DNA from: Sphaerolaimus hirsutus
Taxonomy: Eukaryota; Nematoda; Chromadorea; Monhysterida; Sphaerolaimidae
Assembly: GCA_964036195.1 (NCBI GenBank)
Contig: OZ038450.1
Span: 28,522,794 to 28,586,793 of the forward strand
Length of the DNA: 64,000 bases
Direction: 5' to 3'
Below the pieces are notes generated by a model, which had not been told where the DNA came from, searched no databases, and was given only the letters and a program-made list of their open reading frames with translations. How positions within the stretch are numbered: position 1 is the stretch's first letter; each line of letters begins with the position of its first letter. This document shows, in pieces, positions 1 through 63,756 of the stretch. The translations under genes were made by a program, and so were the position numbers.

Positions 1-1228
1 TTGAGCAGCAGCCAATCGTGCCATGGCCTTAGCTACCGCTTGATAAGCCAAATGTTCCTCAGATGTTAACAACGCCATTTCCTCAGTCAAAATTCTCGCC
101 AATTCATCAACAGGTATATCAAATGCATATTCTTCAAACGCTTCGTCCAAATTAACACGCTCATCAAATTCAACGGGTGCATCACGCCGGCGCGACAAAG
201 CATCAGCCAATTCGTTACTTTTCCCACGCAAATGCTTAAAAGTAACTTGATATGATTGAATAGCAAGCGCAAATCGGTGCAAACCCGTATGGGGATGGGT
301 TTCCAAATTTGGATTTTTCACCCATGAAATACTTTTCGCATCAGTCCAAACTTCAAACGGCCGACCCGCTAAATAACAATGCCAATTGCGTATGCTCTCA
401 AAAATAGCACATGCTTCTTGCGTAATTGCAGGCCATCGGGATTGCGCTTCAGAAAGTTTTCGACTATAAAATGAACACGCATGCAAAGCGGCGGCAGGTT
501 CAGCGCGTTGTACTAAAATGCCAGCTAATGCAACTTTAGAAGCATCGGTAATAATTATGAACGGTTTACTGGGATCAGGATACTGTATACAGGGACTTTC
601 AGCCACCATCACTTTCAACTTATTAAAAGCTTCCAAAGCGGCGGGGTTCGCATTTAAATCTACGGGAGTACTTCCGCTATACTTTTCAGTTCCTAATTCA
701 GTTTTTGTTCGAGTTAAATTAGACAAAGGAGCGGCATATTCAGCACATTTATGAATTAATCTCCGGAAAAACCCAACGGCACCCAAAAACGCTTTAACTT
801 CATGCACACACACAGGTAGCGGCCAGTCACTCAAATACTTTCGCTTATCATCCGGTATACAAATTCCTTCACGCCCTACCATATAACCCAGGAATTTAAC
901 AGCAGTTGTGCGCGCGAAAAAACACTTTTTTGGGTGTATTTTAAAACTGCTACTTATCAAACGCGACAAAACCTGACTTATATCACTCAAATGATCTTCC
1001 CATGACCTACTGTAAATGAGCAAATCATCTATATATACCAACACATTTCGATGCAATAATCCAGCCATTGTAACTTCAAAACAGCGCTGCGCTAAAGCCG
1101 GGGAACACTTTAATCCCATCGGCAAGCGTTTCATCTGAAATTGACCAAAACAATTACGAAACGACGTAATATGTCTATCATCCGGATGCAGCGCAATGTT
1201 GTAAAACGCTTGATTGATATCGACACTG
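1..1228 (-). CDS. RT palm and RNase H of the same element, in the shifted frame, partial
   Basis: Continuation of the polyprotein in another frame after a single-base shift at 1231-1235. The frame is open to the window edge. Visible motifs: RT motif A (SSVDINQAF) immediately after the shift; the catalytic YIDD box at 1024-1035; the RT thumb/connection (FLGAVGFFRRLI) around 770; RNase H with first Asp in IITDASKVALAG near 545, an acidic EACAIFE near 415, and a later Asp in VWTDAKSI near 345; then a Ty3-like KSNELADALSRR motif near 200. Integrase is not in the window. No further stop was found, so only one lesion separates the two parts. Confidence 0.85.
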
Positions 1229-5626: not shown

Positions 5627-5650
5627 ACGGTGATCAGTCGCCTGAACTCA

Positions 5651-9536: not shown

Positions 9537-9832
9537 AGACCCTGTAAAATGTTCCTTTAAAAGGTCAAGTGTGATGGAAAGTGTCAAAAGTCATGTAAAA
9601 TGCCCTGGAAAATGGCAAGCGTACGCGTAACAGGTGCCACTCCCAGACCCTGTAAAATGCCATGTAATTTGAAAAATGTCAAACAATGAGTCAAAAGTCA
9701 AGTAATATGCCCTGGAAAATATTAAATGTCATGCAAACGTGTGCCATTTTCCAGGGCATTTTACATGACTTTTGACACTTTCCATCACATATCACATTTT
9801 ACACGTAATTTCACAGGCTTCGAACGTGCCCC
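9537..9832. mobile_element. Foldback MITE family A (ends near CAGGTGCCACTCCCAGACC), copy 1, complex
   Basis: Starts with a remnant (AGACCCTGTAAAATG, 9537) followed by a second end CAGGTGCCACTCCCAGACC at 9631. Arms carry TGTCAAAAGTCATG and its complement CATGACTTTTGACA, with GTGCCCCCAGACC near 9827. Family A copies are palindromes of about 150-220 bp with the word order CCCAGACCCTGTAAAA, GTCAAATGTCATGCA, AAGTGTCAAAAGTCATG, GCCCTGCAAAATGGCAAC, then the reverse complement. No coding capacity. Confidence 0.75.
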
Positions 9833-13316: not shown

Positions 13317-14719
13317 CAGCGCCTGATCTCGCGCGACACATTTGTTTGGGATTTGACAAAAACCAGTGATACCGAAAAGAGAATAAATGGCGTAGGCACT
13401 GGCGCTTGCGCCAAACTTTGCCACGCCTGGGCCAGGGTTCAATTAGAGCATAAGGTATCCACCTTCTAATTGAATCTGGCACCTGGCCTTGGCAGTGTCA
13501 TGAAAAGTTAGGGTTTTTCATGGAGTTGAAAATCCGGCACATTTTTCGAATTAAAATACTGATATGGACATTTTGAAACAATATTAAAAATCGACAAATT
13601 TTTGTATCCGATATCAGAATCAAATGTCGGGTACTTTTCAATATAGAATTTTGATATTGAAAATAAAAAGGAAATTCGATTTATCACTGACATGTCGTAA
13701 ATACATATTACACAGGATTATTTCCCAACACCTAAAAACAACGGATTAGTAAGAGATTTTAGGATAAATCTGTACTCTTTATAATTATTTTATCTAAATC
13801 TTGATTTTAACAAACCCACACTGACCGTTTTTCCCATTTTAACTAAATTCAACACGTACTCATGATAAAAATTGAAAGTGAACAAAATGGAAACGCGTCA
13901 TCTAAGCGTCCTTGAAGCGCGAAATTTACATTTTCCGCGCAATGGACATGATTATATTCCGCTGAAAATTTCGGCCCTGTATAATCTTTTCGCGCATGTT
14001 TTCATGCAAACATCAAGAAATTTTCATGTGATCCCCGGTGACACATTCTCATTTTTGGTCAACAGCTCTTTTGTTCTGCTTTTTTTCATTTTTACTGCAT
14101 TTTACGGATATTCATAGTGTCATTCATGAGAGTTGTCGTACTGGCGAGTTTTTGTATTTAATATAAATAATTATTTGTGTATGTTTTTTATTTTGTAATT
14201 ATGTTCATTTAGATAGCCATAAAAATTTAAATGGAAATTAAAGTGTAATAATGTATTTTTTTCATAAAGAGGATTGAGGGAAATCAATAAAAGCAGATGT
14301 CTACATCTATTCACAATCAGGTAAATTGAAAAATTCACTGTTGAAAAACTGTCACTTTTAATGCAGCAAGTGTTTTGCATACATCTGATGTACAAATATC
14401 GTGACATTAAGACACAGATATTGTGACACTATTTGGATTAATTTGGTAATGCAGAAAATGTATTGATATTCAGACAGTTAAATCTAATACTTGACAATAT
14501 TCTGAAGCTGCATGCATATCTATTTAAGCATTGCTCTACACAACATGCATTTTCCTTTATGTTGAATATTTAAGTAAAAGTTTTTTAAAGATGATTGACA
14601 AACATCAGTATAGTTACCTTATGCAAAAAGTTATACATGGGTGCATGGTTTGGATTGGCTGTGAAATGGATACAATTTGAAGAAGACATTTTAATTAAAT
14701 TGAGAGCCCTATCAATTAA
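13317..14719. other. No gene recognised
   Basis: AT-rich DNA without a supported gene. A short inverted pair around 13405-13500 (GCGCTTGCGCC / TTCAATTAGAGCATAAG) was noted but has no clear borders. Confidence 0.35.
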
Positions 14720-15211
14720 GCCGGAATTAGAGCTCAGCGTCTATTCGACGTGAAATGACTACATGAAATGACGTTGTGAAATTAATTACACGAGTGTGGA
14801 TCATGCTATGGGTCTACAATTTTCTAAGGATAATATATGAATCAATACCTTAATCGTGTCCAATACTGAGTGTTATCAGCCACAACTAGAGCGAATTGAA
14901 AAATTCAATTTTTATCATTCCACGTCATCATTTTATGTCAGGGAACAACTTGACATTTCACGTCAGACTATTGCTTGCAAATGATGACAACGACATAAAA
15001 TGATGACGTGGAATGATAAAAATTGAATTTTTCAATTCGCTCTAGTTGTGGCTGATAACACTCAGTATTGGACACAATTAAGGTATTGATTCATATATTA
15101 CCCTTAGAAAATTGTAGACCCGTAGCATGATCCACAGTCGTGTAATTAATTTCACGACGTCATTTCACGTCATCATTTCACGTCGAATCGACGCTGAGCT
15201 CTAATTCCGGC
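14720..15211. repeat. Long palindrome, arms of about 220 bp
   Basis: The left arm (about 14720-14940) starts GCCGGAATTAGAGCTCAGCG and the right arm (about 14990-15211) ends with its complement CGCTGAGCTCTAATTCCGGC. Arms match almost completely, including TAGACCCRTAGCATGATCCAC and TGATGACGTGGAATGATAAA. The loop of about 50 bp contains TGACATTTCACGTCAGACTA. No coding capacity; probably a foldback transposon. Confidence 0.85.
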
Positions 15212-16492
15212 TTTACTGACACATGCCCTGTCAAATGAAAAATAATTAAAAAGTCTCAAATCCCAAGTAAAATGGCTGATATGTTTCAAATGGCTGTTAC
15301 ATACCAAGCAAATGTTCAGATGTCTAGGACGCATCTTAGTGTGAATTTGTGACTTCATACTTACAAAATTTGTGATGTCACAGAGCACTTGACAAGACAA
15401 GGGGAAGTATTACTTTCTGACACCTGAAAGCAAATGATGTCTACAATGTACTACTCACCCCATTTATTGCCCAGGTTCTGGCATTAAAACTACTACATAA
15501 TACTATATTAAATTTTACCATACGTGTGCTTAGCCAATCAACTGTCACTTAACTTTCAAAGTTGCTTGTGTGTATGTATTTAATTCCAAAATATTGATTG
15601 ACAGTTTTTATGTGAAACACAAATAAACATTTTCTTATTACCCTACAAACAGTGAAACTGACAATACCCATGAATGGCACACTAGTACTCTTTTCGGTTT
15701 ACTTCCACAGTAAAACAGTAAAATATTGTACTGTCAGAATGTTAGAAAGTGATAATGCAGTATTATGAAACAATCTTTGAAGTATGTTTACTACAAAACA
15801 CTTATTTTTACCTATGCTATCATGTGCTTAATTTTGAATTCGAAATTTCGAAACTTCACCTGAAAAAGCAGCGCGGTTTGTTTGCACAGTACGGGTTTTT
15901 GCAACTATTTATTTGTATACAAACTATGTATAAAACTGATTTTTGTTTCAGCATTTGATTGTCCCTAAAATGCGTTTGTGCAACCCGGCAAAAAGTCAAC
16001 ACATCTAACAAAATGGTTTTTCTGTTATTTTTGTGAAGGGCTAATTTTTCATTTAACGATGTAGAGAGAAATATGGTGATGGCTTCCCATTTATATTTGT
16101 CAGACGGGAAATTATTTTGGCATTTGAAAGCTAAAAATTTGCGCGAAAATTTGAAAGCTAAAAATCATCATGATTTACATTGACCTACATCTACATGATT
16201 TCATCAAATATATCAATCTTCCCCCCAAAAAATTCCGCGTTATTATTCAATTGACCCACTGAAATGTTGTAAAATAAAAAAATCAAGATTTTTAGTCATT
16301 CGTGAACCCGAGTAAACAATTTTACCGGTGCGATTTCCTTCGAAACTTCCGGCTGTCACTCGTTTCGCTGGACATTTTCCATTTTTCTAGGTTTTCACTT
16401 TCGCTATTTTTTTATTTCTGGAGCGCAAAATCACTTTTAACGTGAAACCGGAGAAGGGTGACATTTACATTTTTGCCTTAGCACACCAGTTT
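15212..16492. other. No gene or clear repeat seen
   Basis: AT-rich sequence. Small open frames lack recognisable domains or splice context. Confidence 0.35.
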
Positions 16493-19039
16493 TATATACT
16501 CTGCGGACATCACACTTAGTATGGAGACCTACCATAAAACATTTAAATAATGAACCAAAAATTATACACTTTTTTCGTCATAATATTTCGTTTTTCTATG
16601 GTAAACACCTTCCCGGACAAGTTCACCACCCATTTTTTTAATTCACTTCGAATGCAATATCTCCGTCCATGGGGGTGTTATAAGGCTGAAACTTTGTATA
16701 TATAAAGTTGTAAGACCCCTCTACTCTTTAACAATGGGGGGAGGTGCGGCGACTCACTACAGGGTGGGTCGCCCTTATGCAACAATTTTTTGTAGCGTTT
16801 TTGGTGTCCCAAGCAAGTTCACCACCCACTTGATTAGCTACACTTTGAAGGCTATATCTGCAGCTGTGAGGGCGGTAGAAAGCTGAAATTTGGGGGATGT
16901 CTTGCCAACAACCCCCCTCACAATACACCAGTGGGGCGGCTGCCGACAACCCACTAAAGCATGGGCCACTGCATATAAAGTTGATATTTTTTTTAAGAAC
17001 AGCCCAAGTGTCCCAAACAAGTTCGCAACCCAACTGCATTATAAAAAAATGTTGTGACAACATACCTGATATAAAATTTAATCAGATTTTAACCCTAGTT
17101 TTGCTCATTTAATTTTTTTCAGTGGGGCACCCACACTGTCCCATAAACAGCAGACTGAAAATTTCACTTTAAACCAATTTTTTGTATCACACTTAAAAAG
17201 TTGGTTTACAAAGTTCACTAGGGGAGGGTCTAAGGTTCAAAGTTATGTAAACAACATAACCTCTAAAATGCTTCCATAAGGAAATTTATTTGGGGTGAAT
17301 GAAAAAGTGAAAATTTTGTTCCTGAAATGACATCATTTTGACATCATAGAATTCACCCCAAGTAAATTTCCTTATGGAGGTATTTTAGAGGTTATGTTGT
17401 TTACATAACTTTGAACCTTAGACCATTCTCTAGAGAACTTTGTAAACCAACTTTGTAAGTGTGAAACAAAAAAATGGTTTAAAGTGAAATTTTCATTCTA
17501 CCATTTATGGGACAGGGTGGGTGCCCCACTGAAAATAAATTTTGTGAGGGGGGTTGTTGGTAAGACATCCCCCAAATTTTAGCCTTATACCGCCATCACA
17601 GCTGGATACATACATGCCAACATCCTACGATAGTACTCTGGCGCAAGTCATGGGTAAGCTCGTTAAGTGAAGACTGCTGTAGCCGCCTGTGCGGGGGGTC
17701 TCCCCCCGGACTGGAGGTTACTGACATTGCAGCAACAAATTCACGACACCATGACTTCCAAAGCACTGAGCGACACGTTCCTAGTACAATCTTTGATGCG
17801 GCGGTGTGCCACAAGAAACGTAGTGAGGTGTCAATCTTCTTAGAAAACCTTATGGAAATATTAGCAGAATGGCCAGAACGCTGTGACGCTTATTCGTACA
17901 CGAGCGGGATGGCCATTTCTGCACAATGAAAAATAGCTGAACATAGATGTACAAAATTGGTGTAAGGGATTTTAGAGTTCGAGTTTCAATGACGCTTCAA
18001 TACGCTCAACGTGATGTAAGAGTTTTTCTCACCCGTAATCTGACTGATGTTTATGATGCAATGTATTTCTGTCAATGTAAGCTGGAAAGAGTCTATGAAG
18101 TTAAATCTGTGAAAAGTATGAGAAATTGCAATCAATTTTTGTGACAAATTGGAAATTATCATATGAAATGAGGATCAATAACTCTTCTAACATATCAATA
18201 CAAAGATGTTTTCAGAATGCAAAATTTCAACCAATATTTGGAGCTGGTTAAATAATGGAAATCTGTAGACTCAGTAGGTGATTAAATATGACAAGATGTA
18301 TCTGTGTGGTGTAATTCGCTTATATTCATGTTAAAATTCACTTGCCGTTTGTTATTTTTCTTTTTGTGCTCGCTCTTATGCGCGAGTGTTCAACCCGGGT
18401 CAGGGGTATTAGCGTGTTTTACACCGGTGTGACTGGCGATGTTGTCTGCCATTTTCCTGTATCGACTCATTTATTAGGACGCTAGGTAGTTTGTAGATTT
18501 TGTTTTTCACTGGCAATCGCAATACTTGTTATCTTGTCCACATTCACAATCACATGCCATTTCTATGCTGTAGTGCTAAGCAACAAGGTTAAAATCTCAC
18601 CAAATATGACCACAGTAAGGGTAGCCGACGGGTGTATGTTATTATTTTTACTTGCACTTGACTTGAACAGTCCGCGCCGAGTAAACTAATTGAATTAATT
18701 GAATGGCTCTCGTAGTGTAGCCAATCAAGTGGGTGGTGAACTTGTTTGGGACACCAAAAACGCCAAAAAAATTGTTGCATATAGGGCGACCCACCCTGTA
18801 GTGAGTCGCCGCACCTCCCCCATTATTAGGGAGTAGAGGGGTCTTACAACTTTATATATACAAAGTTTCAGCTTTATAACACCATCATGGACGGAGATAT
18901 TGCATTCGAAGTGAAATAAAAAAATGTGTGGTGAACGTGTCCGGGAAGGTGTTTATAATAAATGACGAAATTTATCACAATATTTTATACATTTAATTAT
19001 GGTAGGATTCAGCGCATACTTTGCGGTCCGTCGAGTATA
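16493..19039. mobile_element. Composite family J element, 2.5 kb, with nested palindrome and insertion
   Basis: The outer ends are those of the short family J MITEs: TATACTCTGCGGACATCACAC at the left and TTTGCGGTCCGTCGAGTATAC... at the right. Inside them a second inverted pair runs 16600-16860 against 18712-18960 (GGTGTCCCAAGCAAGTTCACC versus GGTGAACTTGTTTGGGACACC). Within that lies a palindrome, 16870-17600. The right arm is split by about 1.1 kb (roughly 17603-18710) that has no partner on the left, so it looks like a later insertion. No transposase recognised. Confidence 0.75.
16870..17605. repeat. Palindrome inside the composite family J element
   Basis: TTTGGGGGATGTCTTGCCAAC (16890) pairs with TTGGTAAGACATCCCCCAAA (17558). 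CAGTGGGGCACCCACAC (17120) pairs with GGTGGGTGCCCCACTG (17516). AGGTTCAAAGTTATGTAAAC (17231) pairs with GTTTACATAACTTTGAACCT (17399). The centre is near 17310. Confidence 0.8.
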
Positions 19040-24325: not shown

Positions 24326-24529
24326 CAGGTGCCACTCCCAGACCCTGTAAAATGCCATGTAAAATGTCAAATGTCACACAATGTGTCAAAAGTCATGTAA
24401 TATGCCCTGGAAAATATTAAATGTCATGCAAACGTGTGCCATTTTCCAGGCTATTTTACATGACTTTTGACACCTTGCATGAGATTTGACATTTTACAGG
24501 GCATTTTACATGTTCTGGAAGTGCCCCAG
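24326..24529. mobile_element. Foldback MITE family A, copy 2
   Basis: Begins CAGGTGCCACTCCCAGACCC and ends TTCTGGAAGTGCCCCAG. Arms AGTCATGTAATATGCCCTGG / CCAGGCTATTTTACATGACT. The flank GCGTAA matches that of copy 1. Confidence 0.8.
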
Positions 24530-25120
24530 GAATAGATCCCTGTGTTCACTGTATACACCACCTCCATATCCTGGATATACAGCAAAATTGTGCAAAAATG
24601 GGGGAATGGCAAGTTTGTTGCTCAGGACTAGGGATTCCAGCCCTATTTGCATTAAGGTGAGGTTTGCCTTGATTTTCAGGGTTTTTTTGGATGTGATAAA
24701 ACGCAATTTCAAAGGCAGACAAGGCTTGGATAAACATTTCCAGATGTTTTTTCTATTGTCAAATTTTGTCCATTGTATTGTGACAACCAAATGCAAAAAG
24801 GAGCCCACTATGTAAAATCGATTTGGATAGTCAAAAACTTTGGTCTGCACGCAATAAAAATGTTTGTTAGAAACTTCCTGACAATCTAAAATCTCAAAAA
24901 CTCAACAATTTACACATTGTGCAGATCAATTGACTTGAACAGAACCACAATCAAAACATCTCTTCTAATAGAACGGCATACCTTCAATAGAACCTAAGGC
25001 TCCAATAGAAGTAAAAGTAAAAAATTTGATGAAAACAATTGAACGGCGCTTTTGTATTAGAAGAAATACGGTATTTGATTTTTCAACAATTTTCACACAA
25101 ACTAATTACATTTGTCACTA

Positions 25121-35734
<10,614 letters not shown>

Positions 35735-40089: not shown

Positions 40090-40445
40090 GACACCTAGTT
40101 GACATCGACACCAAATGTCAACTGGTGGCAGTCCCAAGCCCTGTAAAGTGTAAAGTAAAGTGTCAAATGTAAAGTAAAGTGTCAAATGTAAAGTCAAATG
40201 CAAAGTAAACTGTCAATTGTCATGCAAAGTTCAGTTATAAATTTTTTTTCTTTTTTATTTTGATTGACACTTTACTTTGCATTTGACTTTACATTTGACA
40301 CTTTACTTTACACTTTACAGGGTTTGGGACTGCCCCCTGGTGCCGATCCCAATTCAGAACTTGCTGACGAATGACATTTAAATGAAATCTTTGAATTGGG
40401 AACGGAACCAGTTGACATTTGGTGTCAATGTCAACTAGCGTGTTT
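40090..40445. mobile_element. CACACTAGTTGACA-type foldback with a nested family A relative
   Basis: Outer ends CCGACACCTAGTTGACATCG and GTCAATGTCAACTAGCGTG. The nested palindrome (40126-40340) starts GGCAGTCCCAAGCCCTGTAAA and ends CAGGGTTTGGGACTGCCCC. Its arms are runs of GTGTCAAATGTAAAGT. CTGGT on both sides may be its target duplication. Confidence 0.65.
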
Positions 40446-40905: not shown

Positions 40906-41477
40906 ATGCGAACTGACTGAAAGCTTGGAAATTGCGCATTTGATAAAAAGATTGCAGGGTGGTAAAAATTATGAATAAATAAATATTTATATGGTTTTCG
41001 GGCCGTCCGTTATATAGGCTACATGTTAGAAATACACAAAACACAGGAAAGTAGGTAGAAAAATAGCTGGCAATAGGTAAAATAGGTTACAATGCTTTTG
41101 AGACAGGTTGTTGACCATAGCGGAACCGGAATTGTTACAAAATCTCCACGAAAAATCCCTTCAAATATCTATAAAAAAATCGAATTCACTCACAAGTTTG
41201 AAAATTTTACAAAATCTCCATACTTAACCTTCACACGCAAAATCTCATTCAAATATACAACAAAAATCGAACTCATTCACAAGTTCGAAACTGTCCATAT
41301 TAAATCAAACACACCTTAAAATAAAAAATAATGCAAAAAGTGAAACTAACCTTTCTAAGCGGTGCTAGCCAAGCTGGCATTGAAACGCTCCGCCCGGCGC
41401 GCTTTTTTGGTTTCAACTCCCTGAAAGATGTTTTTTTTGTTGTTGCTTTTTGGGTGAAATTATTCGGGTTTAGGATG

Positions 41478-42003
41478 ATATGACTTTTCGATGCCCATAT
41501 CCTAAATTTTTGAAATGTGGTTTTTGCGCGTCGTTATTCGATATCTCATAAAATAGGGGCCGATATTCGATATAGAAAATGTGTGACATTTGATATTCGA
41601 TAAGACATATAACGCAAAACAACGCACAAGCACATTCTTGGGTAATTTGTGTGGCTGAAGGTTTTTGTAAAAACAACAACATATCAGCCAGTAGTAGTAT
41701 CCGTAGTAGTAGTAGTAGTAAAAACTTGGGCACCGGGCGTACTTGGGCACCGGGTTTACTGGGCACCGACACACCGTCACGGATACTACTACTGGCTGAT
41801 ATGTTGTTGTTTTTACAAAAACCTTCAGCCACACAAATTACTCAAGAATGTGCTTGTGCGTTGTTTTGCATTATATGTCTTATCGAATATCAAATGTCAC
41901 ACATTTTCTATATCGAATATCGGCCCCTATTTTATGAGATATCGAATAACGACGCGCAAAAACCACATTTCAAAAATTTAGGATATGGGCATCTAAAAGC
42001 GAC
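41478..42003. repeat. Near-perfect palindrome with about 225-bp arms
   Basis: The left arm runs from about GATGCCCATATCC (41489) to CCAGTAGTAGTATCCGT. The right arm starts ACGGATACTACTACTGGCTG (41778) and returns to GGATATGGGCAT (41985-41996). The arms are almost identical, including CGATATTCGATATAGAAAAT and AGGTTTTTGTAAAAACAACA. The 65-bp loop has GTAGTAGTAG and GGGCACCGGGCGTACTTG. Open frames seen in both arms on opposite strands encode the same residues because the arms are copies. Confidence 0.9.
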
Positions 42004-42009
42004 GGTGTG

Positions 42010-42190
42010 TCGGTGCCCAAGTAAACCCGGTGCCCAAGTACGCCCGGTGCCCAAGTTTAAATACCCGGTGCCCAAGTACGACCGGTGCCCAAGTAAGGTG
42101 CCCGTACATGTGCACCAGGCGGATGTTTACTTGCGCACCGGGTGGCTTTTTACTTGTGCATACTTGTGCAGTACTTGGGCACTGTGGCGG
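42010..42190. repeat. GGTGCCCAAGTA minisatellite, block 1
   Basis: Degenerate tandem of GGTGCCCAAGTAMRCCC units, continuing motifs in the loop at 41728-41772. Block 2, partly inverted, is at 43015-43190. Confidence 0.75.
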
Positions 42191-42306
42191 TTGCTTACTT
42201 GAACACACAGGGTTTACTTGAGAATCAAGGATTTGCTCATCCCCCTCCCCCATAGCAGCCCGGACACTCATTCGCGATGGCACTCAAGATGAATAGTGAT
42301 GGCACT

Positions 42307-42814
42307 CAGGGTTTTTTTAATTTTGACCCTCCGAGTGGTTGGATATATAGCAAATCGCTCCTCCGGAGGGATAGATAGCTGAAAAATTTTCTGGGGGGGT
42401 TGGGGGGGGGTTGTGGTGGTTCGATAAATATATAGGCTTTTTAGGGACATAGAAGGAAGAAAAGGGAGAAAAATCGCTAAAAGTAGGTGTAAAATAGCTC
42501 AAAATGGGTATACAAGAGAAAATAGTACTTAAAATAGCTGAAAATCAGTGAGACGCATGAACTAGTGGTTTAAGAGGTGAAAATCTATATATAGGTATGA
42601 AAAATAGTGATTTTGAGCGAAAATTGGGGTATAGTTTCTGAAAAATCGCTCCAGATATGTAGATAGCTGGGTGATTTGGGGGGGGGGGGGTTAGGGGGTA
42701 GTAGCTCAAAATTTTGCCTCCGGGATAGATAGATAGCAGAGCGGCCTCCGGGATAGATAGATAGCTGGGCGGTTTGAGGGGGAACCCCCTCAACCCCCCC
42801 ATTTGAGACCACTG
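42307..42814. mobile_element. hAT-like element with GATAGATAGC repeats (family G), copy 1, 8-bp TSD
   Basis: Begins CAGGGTTTTTTTAATTTTGAC, ends TTTGAGACCACTG. Perfect 8-bp direct repeat ATGGCACT at 42299-42306 and 42815-42822. Subterminal GGGATAGATAGCTG units at both ends (42368, 42723-42775), long G tracts, and a middle with AGAAGGAAGAAAAGGGAGAA and AAATCGCTAAAAGTAGGTG. Its three relatives lie inside PRPF19 introns. Confidence 0.88.
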
Positions 42815-42831
42815 ATGGCACTAGCGATCAC

Positions 42832-42960
42832 CTTCACAACCCGGAATGTTACCCGGACTCGATATTTTTTTCTGGTCATAAATACAAGCACTAGTCAACT
42901 GGCGCTTGTATTTACGACCCGAAAAAATATCGAGTGTGGGTAACATTCCGGGTTGTGAAC
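42832..42960. repeat. Short palindrome
   Basis: CACAACCCGGAATGTTACCC (42836) faces GGGTAACATTCCGGGTTGTG (42938). Inner GATATTTTTTTCTGGTC / GACCCGAAAAAATATCG and AAATACAAGC / GCTTGTATTT. Confidence 0.85.
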
Positions 42961-43014
42961 ATGAAATGCTGGAAGTTTCTGTGACTCGCTCGCACGAGTA
43001 TGGTGCACAAGTAC

Positions 43015-43190
43015 CCCCACAAGTTTCTTGTGCACCGGGCAGGGCGCTTGCACCTGAGCGGTGCCCAAGTAAACATCCGCCCGGTGCCCAAGTACAGGCA
43101 CTTTATGTGGGCACTGGGCGTACTTGGGCACCGGGTATTTAAACTTGGGCACCAGGCGTACTTGGGCACCGGGTTTACTTGGGCACCGGT
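43015..43190. repeat. GGTGCCCAAGTA minisatellite, block 2
   Basis: GGTGCCCAAGTA-type units up to 43095, then the complementary TACTTGGGCACCGGG orientation to 43190. It ends just before the hAT-like element at 43210. Confidence 0.75.
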
Positions 43191-43209
43191 CTTTCGCCGT
43201 ATCCGTCAG

Positions 43210-43769
43210 TAGGGTTCAAACGGGATTGACTTTTCGGGATCGGGATTCACTTTTTGAGATTTCGGGATCGGGATCGGGATTGGGGTTTCGGGATCGGGAT
43301 TGGTATTTTGAGATTTCGGTATCGGGATCGGGATTGGCCGGGATTGGGGTCACGGGATCGGGATCGGGATTGGCATTTTTTCGGGATCGGGATTGGGGTG
43401 TAGGGATAGAGATTTTTGTCACTGTTCTGGCATTCACAGTTGTTCATAAAGGTCTCGAAACACTGTTGGATGCCAGAAAAGTGACATAAAATGGACGCTG
43501 GGGGTTTGCGTTCACATTTTTGCACGCAAAAATGTCATTTTTTAACTTTTTATAATTTTCACTATTTTTTCCGGGATCGGGATCCCGGACTTGGGAGATT
43601 CTCGGGATCGGGATTTGAAAGTTTTCGGGATCGGGATCGGGATTGGTATTTTTGGATTTCGGGATCGGGATCGGGATTGGGGTTTCGGGATCGGGATCGG
43701 AATCGGAACTGCTAAATCCCGGAATTTCACGGGATCCGGGATCGGGATCGGGATCCCGTTTGAACCCTA
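43210..43769. mobile_element. hAT-like element filled with CGGGAT repeats, copy 2, 8-bp TSD
   Basis: Termini TAGGGTTCAAACGGGATTG / ATCCCGTTTGAACCCTA. Perfect 8-bp direct repeat TCCGTCAG at 43202-43209 and 43770-43777. Same core as copy 1 (GGACGCTGGGGGTTTGCGTTC, ATGCCAGAAAAGTGACATAA) with more CGGGAT units. Confidence 0.92.
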
Positions 43770-43828
43770 TCCGTCAGTAGACCACACGACCTCGCACATC
43801 AGCTTTTGCACATGTTTTTCTGTCATTT

Positions 43829-46724
43829 TTAATGTAAAAAGTCAATTCCAAAGACACTTACATCCTCCACCCCTCCAGTAATTTTCCCTCCGCCAATGCT
43901 GGCGCCAATTTTCGCTTCTGGCGCAGGCGCTGGCGCCTTGGCGGCGTCGCCAAAACGCTCCCGACGCTTGGAAAGTGTATCGCTGGCCGGCGGTGAAGCG
44001 ACGATTTTCAGAGGTACCGTGCCCTGAATTAATTTTGAGGGGGTGTTTTTAATGGGATTTAAATTAAAAAAGTGGATTGGAACGATATTTTAATGTAGGG
44101 CCGAAATTGAAAAAAACTTGACATTTGCACCGCATTCAAGACGAATTTAAGAGAAAAGATTTGTGAGAAGAATTGAGCCTATACTTTTAAATTACCTGAC
44201 CAAAATCAAGTAAAAGTAATAAGGTAGATTTCACGGTAAAACGGCGCTCAGTTGATAGTTGAAAACAAAAAATAACAATTCAACATAATATAAATAAAAA
44301 ACACACAAAAACGATCCAAAAAATCGTTCAAATCTAAACATCAATCTAAACACCCAACAACAATCCCAAAAAAACCTCAACACAAACCTTATTCGCCAAT
44401 TCGCCGCTATTAAATCTGGCGTTTCTGGCGGCCAACTTCTCATCCACAATATTGGTTTCCACCGCGGAAACGGCGCCGAAACGCTCCGCCCTTTTCTTCA
44501 ATTTGTCCGAATCCACTGGGGGCTTGTCGGTGCCGACGGCGCCCGAGGGGGCCGTGTTGGCGGCCAGGCCGAAACTGAACATAAAGGAAACGATTTTTTT
44601 GCGTTGGGTGAAAGAATTTTTTTGTCAATCGGTCTGGTTCTGGTTTGATTTTATTATATTTTTTACAAGGAAAGATAAGGGCTTGAATAAGTTTATAGGT
44701 AGGAGGCGGCACGAAAAAATGAAAAACCACATGCCCATCCCACAACTGGACAAGTGACAAGAAAAGTGGTAAGTGACAAGTAACGTTATAAGCGTCAAGT
44801 CATGTGACATGTAGTAAATTTTTTGATGAACGAACTTGTCACATAGATTAATGCGTCACTTGACTTAAATACCACTTATAACATGGCTTACCACTTCTTT
44901 CACTTGTCTACTTGCAGAATTTGCATCAAGTCATTCTGTAGCGCGCATAATTTTTGTTGTTTCTCCAAAAACGTCGATTGTGTGGCAAATACAAAGCTTT
45001 TAACTACCATTTTTCCACCACTAAAACCCAATTCCCATTCTTAAACCCCCCCCCAAAACCAACCGTTCAGCCCTAAGCACCGCCCTACTCCCTACATCCA
45101 ATTCAGTACCAAACTTTTTCGCCCTAGCCATCTTTTTCTGCTCATCAAGCGGAACTGAAACTGGCGCGGGCACATCTGGGGCACTTCCAGACCCTGTAAA
45201 ATTTCAAGTGTCATGCAAAGTGTCAAAAGTCATGTAAAATGGCAAACGTTTGTCCACTCTTTCACCTGCCGTTCTATTGGAAGTCGCCATTCTATTTTTT
45301 TCCACAATTTTTGTTTGCTGTTTTACAAGGCATTTTACACGACTTTTGACACTTTGCACAACATTTGACATTTTACAGGGTCTGGGAGTGGCACCTGGAG
45401 GGCCTCGTAGGGCGATTTTGGAGGGCGAACCTCCAGCTGTTTTGCCGGTGGCGTCCGAGTTGACGTCGGACATTGTGATGGGCACGTGCGTGGATTTTGT
45501 CGTTTTTGTCGTGGCAGTTGGCGAAGAAGCGGTTCTGTGTAGGGGTGGGCGGAGTTTGAAGAGGTTTGCGATGATTGGATGGTGGGATGGAAAGGGTGGG
45601 TGAATAGTTTGGTAACATGGCGTCCTAGTTACTTATCGGTTGCATGATTTTTTTAACTTTAGCTACGGTTTCAGATAAAAAATTATTTGGTTGCTTAACA
45701 GATTCCAGCTTCCGGAAAACCGAAAAAGGTTAATCCTGCAATAATTTCACAAACTTATTGCAATATCATCGAAAGGAAAATTTTACCTAAAATGTAATCA
45801 CAAAATGTCATAATCACGCTAAGCATTGATTTTCCTGCCAAAAAACTCCAAATTTCCAAAATCAAGTTGACCAAAATACACCCCCACCTCCGGAGGCAAA
45901 AAACGCACATTTGCACCGGCTTCCGATCGAGTGGTTTTATAGCTGGTGCCGCCTGAGTTGCCGGTTCGCTAGCTGGCGCTGGCTGCGCGTTCTCGCCAGA
46001 TTCAGAGGGAGCCAGCTGAAAAAGTTTTTTTTTCCAGGATAAGGAAAAAGTAGGCGGAGCTTGTGCAGTTTCATTTTGAAGATTCAAATGGAAAAAAAAT
46101 TGAATTTAGTACACTTTACAGTCAGCCAAATCCGTTCAACTGTAACCAAATTAATGAGTTGACAAAAGCGTGGACAGTCAACTAACACCGAGCACAGCCT
46201 CCTCAGACAAACTCGAGCCGGAGCCGTCAACTGCACCTGAAAAATATAATCACCGTTAACAAACACGACCACGAAATTAACAGTTTCAATTTGCATTTCC
46301 CGGTGTTTTTCAGGTCTGGGGGGGGGGGGGGCTGCCCACATGGATGCGTCCAAACATCAAAATTTTGCGGCATCAAAACAATGCCAAAAAATTCAGTTGC
46401 GCTCAGTTTACAAATGCACCGCGAAACTAGCAAACACCGGAAAACCGGTCAACTTCGGAAAAAACATTTCAAACTGCAATCGAACGATCGACAGAACAAA
46501 GGGGGTAACAAACCCCAACCCAACAAACCATCACCCAAACTAGAATCTTCAGTACCCAAAATCTGATTCTCAGCTTTCTGAATATACTCAGCGAGCCGCT
46601 GCACCAAAATTGGCTTGTTGCCAGCGCTGGACAAATTTCTCTTTTTCAAATGCTCCCTCAATTGCACCACGGTCATTTGTTCCAACGAAGCTTCGTCCAT
46701 TCCTACTAGCGAAGTGTCCGCCAT
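43829..46724 (-). CDS. SARNP: SAP domain-containing ribonucleoprotein (SARNP/Tho1-like), 7 exons
   Basis: Exons (5' to 3'): 46724-46556, 46236-46187, 46015-45909, 45534-45395, 45154-45064, 44574-44388, 44023-43829. Phases agree; 312 codons plus TAA. Residues 13-49 form the SAP helix-loop-helix (TVVQLREHLKKRNLSSAGNK, then PILVQRLAEYI). The C-terminal half has the repeated basic RxxRFG motif typical of SARNP: KKMARAKKFG, LRAERFG (across the exon 5/6 junction), KKRAERFG, ARNARFN, KRRERFG. In animals SARNP joins the TREX complex through UAP56/DDX39B and helps mRNA export; that role is by family. It is longer than human SARNP (210 aa) owing to Ala/Pro/Thr-rich exons 3-4 and 7. Odd: intron 4 is almost all a MITE (45178-45398), and a strong GTAAGT donor (43861-43856) lies in the last exon, so an alternative 3' end is possible. 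Confidence 0.88.
44745..44930. repeat. Foldback with CAAGTGACAAG arms, in SARNP intron 5
   Basis: CAACTGGACAAGTGACAAGA (44743) and AAGTGGTAAGTGACAAG face TTACCACTTCTTTCACTTGTC (44888). Related to 40753-40905. Confidence 0.55.
45178..45398. mobile_element. Foldback MITE family A, copy 8, makes up most of SARNP intron 4
   Basis: Ends GGGCACTTCCAGACCCTG (left) and CAGGGTCTGGGAGTGGCACCTG (right). Intron 4 of SARNP is 45394-45155 on the minus strand, 240 bp, and the MITE covers all but about 23 bp of it. On the minus strand the MITE tip reads CCAG/GTGCCACTCCC; the slash is the inferred donor, so the tip supplies the last exon bases and the GT. Confidence 0.85.
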
Positions 46725-48123: not shown

Positions 48124-51100
48124 TCACTCTTTGTCGCTGCTCATGGAGTAGAACCTGAGCGACCTGTCCATGCCCACCGAAGCGATAAAGCTGGCATTTT
48201 GCCCAAATCTCACTCCCGTAGCCGGCGCGGTGTGTTCGGACAGGCGGGCCAATTCATGCCACGCTTTGCATAGGTACACCCTGGAAAGGTGTGAGAGAAA
48301 TGGTTTATTTAGTATGGAGAAAAGATTTATTTAGAATGAGGTCTATAGACACTTAAAAAAAACGAAAAAAATAGTGTGCATAGAAAAGATCTTTCGTGGT
48401 GGTTGAGACCAGAGTTCTAGGAAGAGCCCAGGATGTAAATTTCGCATTACAATTTATTATCAGAAGAAATTATGAAAAGTAGAGGTCATAGAGTTCAAAA
48501 ATTATTGTCGCGGTCTTTCACTCAAGTGACTTAGTTCTGATTCTGACTCTAGATATCGATAGTAGGGTTGGGACGATATATCGTATCGAATATCGAATAT
48601 CGGATATCGACTATTTTTTCATATCGAATATCGATATCGAAAATTTTGAAAAAATATCGAATATCGACCATTTTTTCGATATTTTCGATATTCTATCCTC
48701 CCTGGGCCTGACTTCAAATAAGCCAGGAATGGCACTTTTAGAAGGCGATTTCATGAGCAATTTTACCAAATTTTGCGTGCACTTTGTTCTCAGATGACAG
48801 GGATTTTTGTTTCAGCACTTGCGACAGCATCAAATCTTGTATAAATGCGCAAATCTTATATTTGTGTGTTTTATAGCTAATTACACCATGGGAACAGCAA
48901 TGGCACCATGGCATGGCACCTATAAATAGGGCTGGTATATTTCATGGCTGGGGGCGGCCCTTTCATTATCACATCTGTTACATTTTAAAATCATTTTCTC
49001 ATTTTGATCCTTGTGAGCCATTGAAATTTGTATCATCTACTTTTCAGGAGAGATGATCAATTGGGTTTGTGACCAAATGGAAATACAATATGCCAAATGA
49101 GATATGCCCTGCTATACAAAAAGCAAAATATCGAAATATCGAAAATATCGAAATATCGATATCGAATATCGACCATTTTTTCATATCGAATATCGAATAT
49201 CGATATCGAGGGTCCATATCGTATCGATATCGAATATTGAGTTTCAGAAAAAAATATCGAATATCGAATATCGATATCGAAAAGTCATATCGTCCCAACC
49301 CTAATCGATAGTCTAAATTTTTTTAAATCGAGCGACATTAAATGCCACGATAGTTTGAACCCAAAATTACCAATGAATTGAACTGCCGGGAATACCGGAC
49401 CAGGGGTCTCCAATGGGGGGGGGGAGGTCACACCTCACAATTCCGCTCAGGCAGGGGTTTAGTGGATTTGGACCCCTCCGGGGGTTCACATAGATAGTAA
49501 ATCGCTCCCCCGGAGGGATAGATAGCAAAAAAAATATTTTTTTTGGGGGGGGGGTTCGTGGGGGTTCAATATATAGGCTTTTCTAAGGTATAGAAGGAAG
49601 AAAAGGGAAAAAATCGCTAAAAGTAGGTGAAAAACAGCTCAAAATACGTGTATAAACATATATAGTGCACAAAATAGGCAATAAACACATAAACTAGCGA
49701 TTTTGAAGGTGAAAAACTATAAAAAGGTATGAAAATTGGCGGTTTTGAGCGAATGGCCCTACACACACTAGTTTTCACCGTGACTGATGTGAAAACTGAA
49801 ATGGCGACATGGCGACATCCAGCCTACTCATTATGTATGCTTTATGTGTTTTAGTTTTCAAATTTCAAAGTTTAACTATCATTTATTTAAACTCAAATTT
49901 AAATCAAATCAAATTCAACCGTGATATTTAATTTGCATTTGAAAAAATTTCAGTTTTCACACGAAGTCGCGGTGAACTAGTGGGTGTAGGCACAATATCG
50001 GGGTAAAATTTCTCAAAAATCGCTCCAGACAGATAGATAGCTGGACGATTGGGGGGAAGGGTTAGGGGATAGTAGCCAAAAATTTTGCCTCCGGGATAGA
50101 TAGATAGCTAACAGATTTGGGGGAGGGGGGGGGTAACCCCCCATACTGAACCACTGCGCTCAGGGAAACCTACAAACCTGACATCCTTGCCAGCCACAGC
50201 CAAATAAGTTCCACTTTCATCAAATCGCACATCATTTGGCTCGCAGCCAACTTCCAATTCAATCGTCCTAAAGTTGCGCAATTTTCGCAAATCCCACAAT
50301 TTTACGTGGGTAGCCGCCGCTGTAGCCAGATAAAATCCATTTTCGCTGAACGATATCGACTGAATTGGACCTTCGTGCCCGGGAAAGTTTGCCACGTTCG
50401 ATTGTTCCTGCGGTGTGAAGGTTTTTTGCATAGGTTTGGTTGACGATTGTGAAAAATAAATGCTTATCAAATGGATGTTTTCAATCTTTGGTCAATGTGC
50501 CCACACATACTAGTTGACATAAAAATTCATGTCAACCAAAATCAACTAAATTTCGGTTAATAAGGTGATTTCAACTATCCCATGTGATAGAGCATTGTTA
50601 ATTTTACATAGTGTCACAATTTACATTCAGTTGAAATTCAGTTGACACGAATTTGATATGCCAACTAGCTTGTGTAGGCTCATTTAGCATATAGCAAAGT
50701 AGTTGCGCAAAATGATAACTGGGATTTCCTCAGAACCCAGACTGGGGCCACCCTATTTCCGGACATTCACAGAGTTTAGGAGAGAATACAAAACTGCACT
50801 GGTAAAAAACTGACCTTCAGATCCCAAATCTTGACCATGGCATCTTGCGTACCAACACCGAAAATCAGCCCATCAGGGTGAAATTGCGCACAGGTCATCG
50901 CTGAAAAAAAACAGAAAAATATTTACCAGGGGTAGCCATGGAACGTCAACTGATTTCTATGTCAATTCAGATTTAAGTTGGCGGGTCGCACGATCATGTT
51001 CAAATGTAGACGAATTTAGACATGCATTGTACTTCGACAAGTCAACACAAATCTTGAATCGGCATCTAAACCAGAAGCCAGTTCCGCAAGTGGAAAAGTT

Positions 51101-54100
51101 AAGAGTTAAAACTTAAGAGTTGAGTAAAATGACAAATGGCAAGTTAAGAGTAAAGTTAAATGATAAATGATGAGTTAAGAGACAAGAGTAAAGTTAAATG
51201 ACAAATGATTAGTTAAGAGATAAGAGTAAAGTTAAGAGTCAAGCAAGTGTATCCAAATCTTATCTTTTTCGTATCCAAATCTAATTTTTGGACATAAGAT
51301 TTGGATACAAAAAATAAGATTTGGATACGAAAAAATAAGATTTGGGTACACTTGCTTGACTCTTAACTTTACTCTTATCTCTTATCTAATCATTTGTCAT
51401 TTAACTTTACTCTTGTCTCTTAACTCATCATTTATCATTTAACTTTACTCTTAACTTACCATTTGTCATTTTACTCAACTCTTAACTTTTAACTCTTAAC
51501 TTATCCACTTGCGGAACCAGCTCCAGCCCCATTTTTTCTATGATCATTCCAAGTGGCAACACAAAAAAAATGAGAGTTACAACTTGCCTTGGGAGACCTT
51601 TGAATCGTCGTTAATTTTGCACAGAATGCGCCCCGAACGGATGTCGCTGAAGGCCCATTTCTGAAAATTTAAATAGTTAAACTCACAGGGAAAAATTTAG
51701 TACAAATGATAACGTTACAAAAATATGCTTAAGGGACAACGTAAAAAATATTTTTCTGGTTCGTTTCATATCACAAATACGCAATTTCTGTAATTTTATA
51801 ACCTAAGCGATCTTGATAAAGCTTGCAATTGATTTTCAATACATCGATAAAATTGAACATATACACTTCTAGTTTTAGCTGATTTAAATCACAGCCCCCA
51901 ACAACGAAAAACGCCAGATTCTAAGCTCAACCCCCAAAAAAAGAAAAACCCCAAAAACCAACAGTATCCAAGCTGACACTGAGCACATAATCGCCAGTGG
52001 CGTGCAGACTGACTCCAGTAATAGCATCTGTATGCGCGCGCAGAATGTGTTTCGCGTGGTGTTGGGGTTGTTGTTCGGAACTCTGTTCGGACTCGGAAAT
52101 GTTCCACACGCGGATCGTGCTGGGATTTTTTTTTTGGGGGGGGGGGGGTGTTTGAGGGGTGGTAAATGAGAATTGGTTTTTGCGACATTTACGTGCCAGC
52201 TTGGTAGGAAATATGATCACACCACGCTTGTTTGCGGCGGAAAGTTCGGAAACTGATAAATATTTATATTCTGGACACAAACAGGGTGGATATTTCGGAA
52301 ACGAGGTACCACAAATTTTCATATCTTTTATAGTTTTTCAGCTTCAAAATCATCATCTTTCAGTTGAATTATCGCCTATTCTGTTTTTGCCTATGTGCTT
52401 ATCTACCCATGTTCAGTCATTTTGCGCCCTTTTTAATGAGTTGCCGCCGTTTTTTTCTTCCTTCCAAACCGTGAAAAAGCCTATATATTGAACCCCAGCG
52501 CACCCCAAACTTTTTTTCCCATCTATAATCTCTCCGGAGGTGGATATATTATTTATGTGAACCCCCGCAGATGTCCAAATTCACTCAAACCCGGGTTCGG
52601 CGGGGCAGGGGTCTTATAGATTTCGACCCTCCGGGAGGTTGGATAGATAGCAAGTCGCTCCTCAGGAGGGATAGATAACTGAAAAAATTTCTGGGGGGGG
52701 GGGGTGGGGGGGGGGGTTCGCGGGAGTTCAATATATAGGCATAGAAGGAAGAAAAGGGTGAAAAATCTCTAAAAGTAGGTGAAAAAATGGGTATATAAGC
52801 ACATATACAACTAAAAATAGCTGAAAATAGGCAGTTAGACGTAGGGTTCAAACGATATATCGTATCGAATATCGGATATCGACCATTTTTTAATATCGAA
52901 TATCGAATATCGATATCGAAAATTTTGAAAAAATATCGAATATCGATATCGAAAATTTTGAAAAACTATCGAATATCGATATCGAATATCGACCATTTTT
53001 TCGATATATCGAATCTGTATTGTGTCCCCAAATTTACTTTTCATTTTCATTTTGAGATGTTTATGGTTGATCTGATGTGCTTATAGTATTGTATTTGATG
53101 AGTAAAAGTACAGTATTTATAATGTCATTGTTGTTGGAGTGCTAAATTTGAAGCCAGAAAATGCTGATATACTTTTTTTTGCAACATACCCTTAAGCAAT
53201 TAGGTTAGGATGAACTGTAATATCTACCAATTGTTATTTGTCTGATACACTTTGATTCATCATGTTTTTCTTCTATTTTCTACCATTGAGTGATGTAAAG
53301 CTTGTTAAAATCACTTGTACCATTCAAATTTCAGTAAAGAGATGATTAAACATGTGTGCAACCACATGAAAATACAATATGCCACTTGAAATATGCTGTG
53401 CTATACCAAAAGCATATCGCAATATCGAATATCGAAAATATCGAAATATCGAATATCGAATATCGACCATTTTTCAATATCGAATATCGAATATCGATAT
53501 CGAGGTTCCATATCGTATCGATATCGAATATCGAGTTTCAGAAAAAAATATCGAATATCGAATATCGATATCGAAAAGTCATATCGTTTGAACCCTAGTT
53601 AGACGCATGAACTAGTGATTTTGGAGGTGAAAATCTACAAAAAGGTATAAAAAATAGCGATTTTGAGCGAAAATTGGGGTCGTGTTCCTCAAAAATTTAC
53701 CAAAAAAATAGCGGTTTACCCCACAACCCCCCCCCCCTTTCTTACCCCTGCGGCGGGGGTATACGAACATGGATAAAATGACGCCGCGTCAGGTTTCATA
53801 ATTACCCCCGCCCCTATAAAAAAGACAAAAATTTGCAGACCCTCGTTGCAAGGTGCCTGAATATCAAAGTTTCACTAACCTATCGGCACTTCCAGTGACG
53901 CACAGCGGTTCAGATGGGTGATAAATCGCTGCGGTAATTTTCTTTTGATGTCCTTTCAGTTCGGCCACAACTTTTTCAGTTTCTTTGTTGAATACAACGG
54001 CACTTTTGTCCATGCCGCCTGAAAGTGGATGATTTTGCGATTTGAATTATTTCTTCCATTTGTCTCAGATCGGGTTCGAAAAGCGTTTTTGAAACCAACA

Positions 54101-58400: not shown

Positions 58401-58479
58401 TTTTGTGGACATTTTGAGGGACATCCAACATAACTTTTGATACTTTGAATGACATTTTACAGGATGTGGGTGTGGCAGC

Positions 58480-58706
58480 AGGGGGCAGTCTCAAGCCCTG
58501 TAAAGGTAGAGTAAAGTGTCAAATGTAATGTCAAGTGCAGAATAAAGTGTCAATCATAACAAAACAAAAAAGATTTTATAACTGAACTTTGCATGACAAT
58601 TGACACTTTACTTTGCATTTGACTTTTCATTTGACACTTTACTTTGCATTTGACTTTACATTTGACACTTTTCTTTACAATTTACAGGGCTTGCGACTGC
58701 CACCTG
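58480..58706. mobile_element. Family A relative with AAGTGTCAAATG arms
   Basis: Starts CAGGGGGCAGTCTCAAGCCC, ends GGGCTTGCGACTGCCACCTG. Arms are repeats of AAAGTGTCAAATGTA. Sister of the palindrome at 40126-40340. Confidence 0.75.
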
Positions 58707-61091: not shown

Positions 61092-61093
61092 CC

Positions 61094-61290
61094 TGGGAGC
61101 ACTCCCAGACCCTGTAAAAAGCCATGTAAAATGTCAAATGTCATGCAAAGTGTCAAAAGTCATGGAAAATGCCCTGCGATTTGAATGAAACACGTTTGCC
61201 ATTTTGAAGGTCATTTTCCATGACTTTTGACACTTTGCATGACATCTGACATTTGACATGGCATTTTACAGGGTCTGGGACTGTCCCCAG
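61094..61290. mobile_element. Foldback MITE family A, copy 10, upstream of MTHFR
   Basis: GGGAGCACTCCCAGACCCTG to CAGGGTCTGGGACTGTCCCC. It ends about 120 bp before the MTHFR start codon, so it may overlap the promoter or 5' UTR. Confidence 0.8.
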
Positions 61291-61413: not shown

Positions 61414-63756
61414 ATGGTGCAAGTCGACAGTGGGGGCAGTGCGGTCAGCAATGGCACCCCTAACGGGGTCACCCTACAGCGGGTGTCCAGCATGCCCTAC
61501 ACGGGCGAGGGCGGGTTAGGGCATACCAATGGGGAGGTAAGGGGGTAGATGGGGGGTTGTTTGGGGGCGATGGGAGGTGGCAGTTTTTTGTTTATCTGGC
61601 ATTTGACATTTTATAGGATTAGCGCTTGACGCCCAGGCATTTATTTTTCTTCTGGCGCTTTTCGGTGATTACTCAAAAGTAACGCAAAATATAAATAAAT
61701 ATGCGTTTTTTTCTTCCGGTTTTTGGCAAAATTAAATATCTGCAAATGGTCGCAACGACCACTGCAGATAATTTTGAAAATGTCACCCAAAAATGAACGC
61801 GAAATTCAAATACGAAACGAGTACTCGAATAATTCCCCATCAGTAATTACCATTACCAAAAGTCACCCCCGGGAGCACTCCCAGACCCTGTAAAAAGCCC
61901 TGTAAAATGTCAAATGTCATGCAAAGCGTCAAAAGTCATGCAACTGCTCTGCAAAATGGCAACCGAGTTTTGCAGGACATTTTCCATGACTTTTGACGCT
62001 TTGCATGACATTTGACATTTTACAGGGCATTTTACAGGGTCTGGAAATGGCCCATGTGGGCGTTATTCAAGGTGATACGGTAACTCAAAACAAAAAAACC
62101 GCAGGCTCGCAAAGAAAGCGGCATGCCTCGGGTCCCATCGGGAACTCAATTCGAAGCTTCATATCGCCGTTTGAGCGACAGAGTTCGCGATCGAATTTCC
62201 AGCGGAGATGTTTTTTATTCGCTCGAATTTTTCCCGCCGAAAACTACCAACGCGCTGCCCAATTTTTATCAGAGGTTGGTGGGACAAAATACATGTAGGA
62301 AATAGTCCAGTAAATCAGTGGATTTATCGACCATTGGCGAATTGTGGACTTATCGACTTCTAATAGAAATTATAGAAATCACAATATAAACACTAAACTT
62401 TCTTGCCGAAAATTTCCAAAAATGTGGGCCTATCGACATTTTCCAAGATTCTTCAGGGCACCAATTCTAAATACCGTTTCCAATTGGCCGAAATTTTGGA
62501 CTTATCGACATTTAGAAGTCGATGAGTATGAAATATCAACAATCTTCCTCACAATAAAACACCTCAAATTTACTCACCCCTGACACAAACATAATACCAG
62601 CAAACCAACTGCTAACATCTTACCCCCTCCCTCAAACACCCCCCCCCCTTTCAGAGTGGACCGCCTAGTCTCTGGGGGTGCCGAATTCGTGGACATAACT
62701 TGGCATCTGGGCTCCAACCCAGGTTCGACAACAGAAACCAGCAGTAGTAGCGTAGCTGGGGCTTGTCTCAATTACTGTTTGGTGGATACAATGTTGCATG
62801 TTACGTGTGCACAGTATGAGAAGAGGCAGACTATTGAACATTTGCACAGAGCTAAGGGGTTGGGGTTGAGGAATATTTTGGCTTTGAGGTGAGTTTTTTT
62901 TTTTTGGGGGGGGGGGTTGCAGTTTTATGCCTGCAGCTTTTTACTTTCTTTAAAATTAATTATGGGCAAAAACTCTGGTCATCTCATAGTATACTGGCGG
63001 CGTGCCAACGGTTAGTCACGAATGCGATGTATCAAAAATAATGAGAGATATTTGTGTGATGCATTTTCGTTTCAACGCGAATTACTCATATTTTTATCAT
63101 TTACAAAGCTTACATACGTGAACTATTTTTGGCACGCTGCCACCGTGAACTGCGCGTCCACAGTTTCAAATCAGCCGAGGTTTTTATACCCTTCACGTCA
63201 ATGTTAATATCAAGAAATTTCTGCAATATCCCTTCAGGGGCGACCTCCCCGAGCCGTCAAACTTGAGCCAGTACAAATACAAAGCAGTTGACTTGGTCAA
63301 GTGGATTAGGGAGGAGTTCGCCGATTATTTCACTATTGCCGTTGCTGGTTGGTTCATTTTGAAATCGCAGTCAGTGTTGTAGTTTCTGGTGGTATACTAC
63401 GTATTTCCTCGAATTATCCCCCCTTGAATTGACCCACTCGAAATATTTTTTTTGATCCCTGACTTTTTGAAGAAAACGATAAAAAAACAAATTTTTATTT
63501 TAAAAATCAAGCTTCTATTCTAGGTAACTATTATTTTTAAAAACAACGACCTTTTCGCACAGGCTACCCAAGTGGACATCCGGATGCGGAATCATATACA
63601 GCGGATTTAGAAAATTTAAAAGAGAAATGTGAAGCTGGCGCTGATTTTATAATCACTCAGCTATTTTTCGAGGCTGATGTGTTCATAAAATTCGAGCGCG
63701 ACTGCAGAGAAATCGGCATTACTGTGCCGATCATTCCTGGCATCATGCCAATTCAG
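61414..63756 (+). CDS. MTHFR: Methylenetetrahydrofolate reductase, first five coding exons, cut by the right edge
   Basis: Exons: 61414-61536, 62105-62274, 62655-62888, 63238-63347, 63563-63756; 277 codons in consistent phase. Exon 1 encodes a Ser/Thr/Gly-rich N-terminus ([18 protein letters not shown]) in the place of the phosphorylated regulatory segment of vertebrate MTHFR. The catalytic TIM barrel begins in exon 2 with [11 protein letters not shown]; the Glu corresponds to the catalytic Glu of the family. Later: [59 protein letters not shown], and [15 protein letters not shown], all typical. The enzyme uses FAD and NAD(P)H to reduce 5,10-methylene-THF to 5-methyl-THF. The last visible exon ends PGIMPIQ/GTGAG; the rest of the barrel and the SAM-binding regulatory domain would lie beyond the window. 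The start is the only ATG close to the first splice donor that lies outside the upstream MITE. Confidence 0.92.
61871..62054. mobile_element. Foldback MITE family A, copy 11, in MTHFR intron 1
   Basis: GGGAGCACTCCCAGACCCTG to CAGGGTCTGGAAATGGCCC. Arms AAAGCGTCAAAAGTCATGC / CATGACTTTTGACGCTTTGC; the C in GCG is mirrored in both arms. Confidence 0.8.
63397..63460. mobile_element. MITE family F, copy 14, left end only, in MTHFR intron 4
   Basis: TACGTATTTCCTCGAATTAT, CCCCCCTTGAATTGACCC. No right end before the acceptor at 63562. Confidence 0.45.

Follow-up and report, generated by a model that had tools for sequence, protein, structure and literature searches.

In the window analysed here, a stretch of 64,000 nucleotides from the nematode Sphaerolaimus hirsutus with a GC content of 39%, a SARNP/Tho1-like gene is interrupted by a short foldback element. 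On balance, the gene and element sequences suggest that the element inserted into a continuous SARNP exon and was kept since it can be spliced out, most likely supplying the 3' splice site itself. In the course of events that we propose, the foldback would have inserted in sense orientation into the coding exon and would have been retained because the transcript can splice the element out. The element would most likely provide the 3' splice site, either as a TTTTACAG-type acceptor in its 3' arm or as CCCCAG at its tip, and the donor would be the exonic GGAG/GTTCGC, 33 nt upstream of the element, or the element tip CCAG/GTGCCA. Transposon-driven intron gain is a known kind of event, and we regard the locus as a fair candidate introner.

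Judged by its predicted product, the interrupted gene is a SARNP/Tho1-like, animal-like RNA-export gene, as the sequence-only reading had proposed. Both SARNP/Tho1 domains are present, the SAP domain (E 6.3e-11, 42.1 bits; cut-off 23.9) and the Tho1/MOS11 C-terminal domain (Tho1_MOS11_C, 29.5 bits; cut-off 26.8). In the gene model (Table 1) the donor of intron 1 is GATG/GTTTGT, exon 4 ends at 45431 instead of 45395 if its donor is GGAG/GTTCGC, and exon 5 starts at 45193, 45175, 45160 or 45154, depending on the choice of acceptor. The 46 codons of exon 4 outscore all 896 open intron windows of equal length, and the exon taken as far as GGAG likewise outscores all 1790 such windows of its own length. 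The latter argues against a mis-modelled exon 4, in which the gap between exons 3 and 5 would be a single intron, or hold a different exon, with the element inside it. Although the encoded linker has no obvious equivalent in an approximate human SARNP sequence, we consider this improbable, as the best donor of exon 3 is in phase 2 and the acceptors of exon 5 call for phase 1, a change that exon 4 provides. The alignment to this approximate human sequence pairs VVKITSEIP with PVQITASSP at the junction of exons 3 and 4; it gaps over KIALRGPP, a segment previously described as SARNP-like, and that likeness was not recovered.

Table 1. Features of the SARNP/Tho1-like locus (positions in the window; scores relative to the 28 reference donors or acceptors)
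Feature	Position	Strand	Remarks
SARNP/Tho1-like gene	41355..46724	-	eight exons modelled; stop codon read by eye
SARNP exons 1-3	46724-46529, 46236-46187, 46015-45909	-	
SARNP exon 4 up to element	45395..45534	-	ACACAG acceptor, phase 2 to 1
SARNP exon 5, right of element	45064..45175	-	in frame with Tho1/MOS11 repeat KKMARAKKFG
SARNP exons 6-8	44574-44388, 44023-43862, 41420-41355	-	
MITE-like foldback element	45176..45397	-	222 bp; gene-strand tips CAGGTGCC...GTGCCCCAG
In-frame TGA within element	45204..45206	-	
Candidate donor GGAG/GTTCGC, exon 4	45429..45430	-	score 4.12, below all 28 reference donors
Candidate donor CCAG/GTGCCA, element tip	45393..45394	-	score 0.96, below all 28 (lowest 4.78)
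Candidate acceptor TTTTACAG/GG, 3' arm	45194..45195	-	score 7.2, above 12 of 28 reference acceptors
Candidate acceptor CCCCAG/AT, element tip	45176..45177	-	score 1.32, above 2 of 28
Candidate acceptor TTTCAG/TT, right of element (sequence-only reading)	45155..45156	-	score 2.57, above 2 of 28

The foldback, given as about 217 bp before, was confirmed, with the boundaries listed in Table 1. Its arms (45182-45241 and 45331-45390) are 60 nt each and 90% complementary, and thus provide the terminal inverted repeats of a MITE; on the gene strand the element reads CAG/GTGCC...GTGCCCCAG and lies between SARNP exons 4 and 5. As RNA, the segment 45155-45434 has a predicted fold of -114 kcal/mol (z -9.95 against 200 shuffles). 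The minus-strand tip reported earlier, CAGGTGCCACTCCCAGACCCTGTAAAA (45397-45371), has error-free matches at 9631, 24326 and 36901. A fuzzy tip search together with BLAST delimited 12 copies in the window, the focal one included, besides partial copies; the 11 others, bounded at both ends and with the left tip degraded in one (59553), agree with the earlier count of at least ten. This is a local family of short foldbacks with tips CWGGKGCMACTCCC, its tips being summarised as CWGGKGC(M)ACTCCCAGACCCTG, and the 12 delimited copies with inverted arms make it a multi-copy transposable element with terminal inverted repeats, as looked for in an introner. The arms of the focal copy are 91% identical to the family consensus, and the insertion is not unusually fresh, because this value falls within the 64-95% of the other copies. 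Two copies, 40122-40339 and 58479-58706, form a diverged subfamily with arms 64-77% identical to the consensus and GTAAAG/CTTTAC units in the arms.

MITE and foldback elements are short, non-coding and multi-copy, with long inverted repeats out to their tips. The focal family shares all of these properties, but differs in that no target-site duplication was recognised, a comparison by eye of the printed flanks revealing no consistent duplication at the copies. An ancient duplication could be eroded, the copies being 5-36% diverged from the consensus. Since none was recognised, we leave the superfamily of this putative foldback transposon without assignment. An Rfam search at gathering thresholds returned no matches, and a tRNA scan with the bacterial code found none. 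Exact matches to two tip-derived patterns were likewise absent, for the first from a viral contig collection and for the second from viral and prokaryote contig collections, which says little as these collections consist of viruses and prokaryotes.

The focal element has a length that is a multiple of 3, and if it were read through, the in-frame TGA would truncate SARNP to 227 aa, with loss of the C-terminal repeats. An insertion that stays unspliced, as a damaged or polymorphic allele, would fit the weak donors and the position of the splice signals within the strong predicted RNA hairpin. We give this very little credence, as the divergence of the element from the consensus is about that of most copies, and no damage was seen in the SARNP exons modelled elsewhere.

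Composition is exon-like on both sides of the element. In the left flank, the 27 nt that follow GGAG/GTTCGC favour exon over intron start by +12.1 bits, which exceeds the value of every one of the 26 real intron starts (maximum 7.6) and of the 26 real exon ends. To the right of the element, the adjacent 18 nt favour exon over intron end by +7.6 bits; none of the 26 real intron ends comes that high (maximum 1.1), and the values of real exon starts span this figure. An intron bounded by GGAG/GTTCGC and TTTCAG/TTCC would measure 276 nt with the element and 54 nt without it, and the shortest of the 26 reference introns has 171 nt. Because both flanks are exon-like, the 54-nt remnant is implausibly short and the in-frame stop needs removal, intron gain by insertion is favoured, as the sequence-only reading had it, and we infer with moderate confidence that the element sits in a former SARNP coding exon. 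The stop-free frame across the flanks says little here, since 37 of 78 frames were also open in a control that joined 33 nt from the start of real introns to 21 nt from their end.

Composition favours exon on both sides, but the left 12 codons gain no such support from their codon usage. These last codons of exon 4, from GGAG to the element, are not coding-like when taken alone: among CDS windows 45 of 1065 fall lower, among open intron windows 958 of 6440 reach their score, and the two other frames outscore the coding frame over them. The missing codon-usage signal after GGAG would be expected if the element were a passenger within an older intron running from GGAG/GTTCGC (45430) to TTTCAG/TTCCGC (45155); no intron would then have been created, and spliced transcripts would be without GSPSKIALRGPP and without DVPAPVS. 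The sites of this older intron outscore those of the element tips (4.12 versus 0.96 for the donors, 2.57 for TTTCAG versus 1.32 for CCCCAG). Its protein also gives the best alignment of 16 to the approximate human SARNP sequence (score 156, compared with 137 for the exact-tip protein and 131 when the tip donor is paired with the arm acceptor), an advantage due largely to its shorter length in this region. Nevertheless, an element-free intron of 54 nt, and flanks more exon-like than any of the 26 real intron starts or the 26 real intron ends, lead us to consider a passenger unlikely, though with a real chance of being correct.

Candidate splice sites were scored against 28 donors and 28 acceptors from four genes, the leave-one-out donor scores ranging from 4.78 to 11.13; the PRPF19 and MTHFR borders in this set follow from conserved protein sequence, and some of the SARNP and 25-28.5 kb gene borders were set partly by consensus, which brings in some circularity. 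Four candidate donors (first bases 45430, 45394, 45376 and 45265) were combined with four acceptors (last bases 45194, 45176, 45161 and 45155), and the frame is kept in 16 of 16 combinations. Phase therefore cannot choose between them, and the 240-nt intron 45394-45155 that had been deduced from phase is in frame and does begin with a GT (45394-45393), but is not determined by it. With exactly these borders, CCAG/GTGCCA (45394) and TTTCAG (45155), the intron would be a variant of the gain model with an element-made donor. We find this variant highly improbable: its frame is intact and the tip GT falls exactly at the element border, but the donor scores below all 28 references, the acceptor exceeds only two of 28, and the 18 nt that precede TTTCAG do not look like the end of a real intron. 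The earlier suggestions that the element tip acts as the splice donor, and that the insertion made or took over the donor, thus fared poorly, as the exonic donor scores higher and the family has good acceptors, not donors. The exonic GGAG/GTTCGC, formerly put forward as the alternative, does outscore the tip, but it too lies below every reference donor.

The best splice signal at the locus is the predicted acceptor within the element arm, TTTTACAG, ending at 45194. An acceptor scoring at least 7 is found in the 3' half in 20 of 24 copy-orientations, which as homologous copies describe the family and are not 24 independent events; 729 of 5000 random 190-nt stretches reach the same measure. This acceptor sits at most 31 nt from the 3' end in 14 of the 24; the best site of the other copy-orientations lies closer to the centre. 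Donors scoring at least 4.78 within the first 45 nt are present in a single copy-orientation of 24, versus 786 of 5000 random stretches, and a strong donor carried by the family was rejected on these numbers. The family brings acceptors rather than donors, which is the opposite of the emphasis of the sequence-only reading. By eye, TTGAC/ATGAC stretches before the arm acceptors look branch-point-like. A broader and distinctly unlikely reading would be that of an animal foldback family that becomes an intron in either orientation, its 3' arm always ending in a TTTTACAG-type acceptor and the donor coming from the exon struck; such a family would lack a target-site duplication and a good donor of its own, and with arms that are inverted copies of one another it would carry an acceptor to any site of insertion.

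Copies of the family had been placed away from exon borders. Assessed against four gene models (SARNP, PRPF19, MTHFR and the 25.1-28.5 kb gene), this has one possible exception, the copy at 24326-24529, itself without codon-usage support. This copy has the same CAGGTG...CCCCAG tips in sense orientation and is directly adjoined by an open frame (24530-24656) that ends in a strong donor at 24657 (score 10.63). All 1034 CDS windows have a higher codon score than the frame, its score is reached by 72 of 1075 open intron windows, and a Pfam search of the frame gave no match. With codon usage against coding, it was not counted as a second exonic insertion and is a weak lead only; 24530-24656 could be a 5' untranslated exon. 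Of the remaining copies, one (61869-62056) is inside MTHFR intron 1, another (61093-61290) is found 123 bp upstream of the MTHFR ATG, and partial copies near 25355 and 26405 are within introns of the plus-strand gene at 25.1-28.5 kb; the others fall outside the four gene models.

The intron-containing genes of the window include, besides SARNP/Tho1, PRPF19 (minus strand) and MTHFR (plus strand). The best PDB match of PRPF19 reaches 660.7 bits and the next 519.8; we take these two to be the human and C. elegans proteins. PRPF19 has an apparent GC donor at 51587 (minus strand), CCCAAG/GCAAGT, in agreement with the conserved protein alignment. The multi-exon plus-strand gene at 25127-28456 gave no family in a Pfam search, and one stretch of it weakly matches AEBP2 (E 0.065). 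Over 50 nt, the 27 introns of PRPF19, SARNP, MTHFR and the 25-28.5 kb gene are G/T-rich at the 5' end (C 10%) and A/C-rich at the 3' end (G 9%). End-to-end pairing of introns like that of the focal hairpin was rejected, with a mean cognate duplex energy of -17.4 versus -17.95 for non-cognate ends, and none was found beyond composition in these 27 introns. Four larger foldbacks (41484-41999, 14712-15219, 51076-51522 and 17113-17538) have arms of 188-228 nt that are 91-99% complementary; the last SARNP intron contains one of them, and a PRPF19 intron another. Retroelement remains occupy 1-5647 (minus strand), with PNMA/gag-like and zinc-knuckle matches in 1232-5647 and reverse transcriptase and RNase H domains at 1-1257.

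The sections of the introner survey on which we draw (Gozashti et al., 2022; PMC9860276) describe introner families with terminal inverted repeats but no target-site duplications, some families that carry the 3' splice site only, their donor coming from elsewhere, and a family that adds codons to the transcript. Like the introners in those sections, the focal copy is short, non-autonomous and equipped with terminal inverted repeats, and it apparently lies in a coding exon, near-flush with candidate splice sites (PMC9860276). Unlike them, it is one likely exonic copy among 12 delimited, and there is no set of similar introns: introns with similarity reaching both splice borders amount to one candidate and one weak lead (24326) in 64 kb. 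For the hairpin introner elements of Amoebophrya, the portion of PMC7789003 used here reports inverted repeats of 8-20 nt near the intron ends that can form a hairpin, direct repeats of 3-5 nt bordering the exons, and splice sites that are for the most part non-canonical. The focal element resembles these, as far as that portion describes them, in its hairpin-capable inverted repeats near the candidate intron ends, and differs in its 60-nt arms, in that no direct repeat was seen, and in its GT and AG candidates (PMC7789003).

In the sections of the survey cited above, introners occur in two groups only among animals and land plants, both of them animal (PMC9860276), and it is in this context that the present locus stands as one candidate. 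If most copies of a family lie outside exons and one or two have inserted into them, the family would represent the stage just before specialisation of a transposon as an intron, and which of the splice sites comes from the transposon could then be tested directly.
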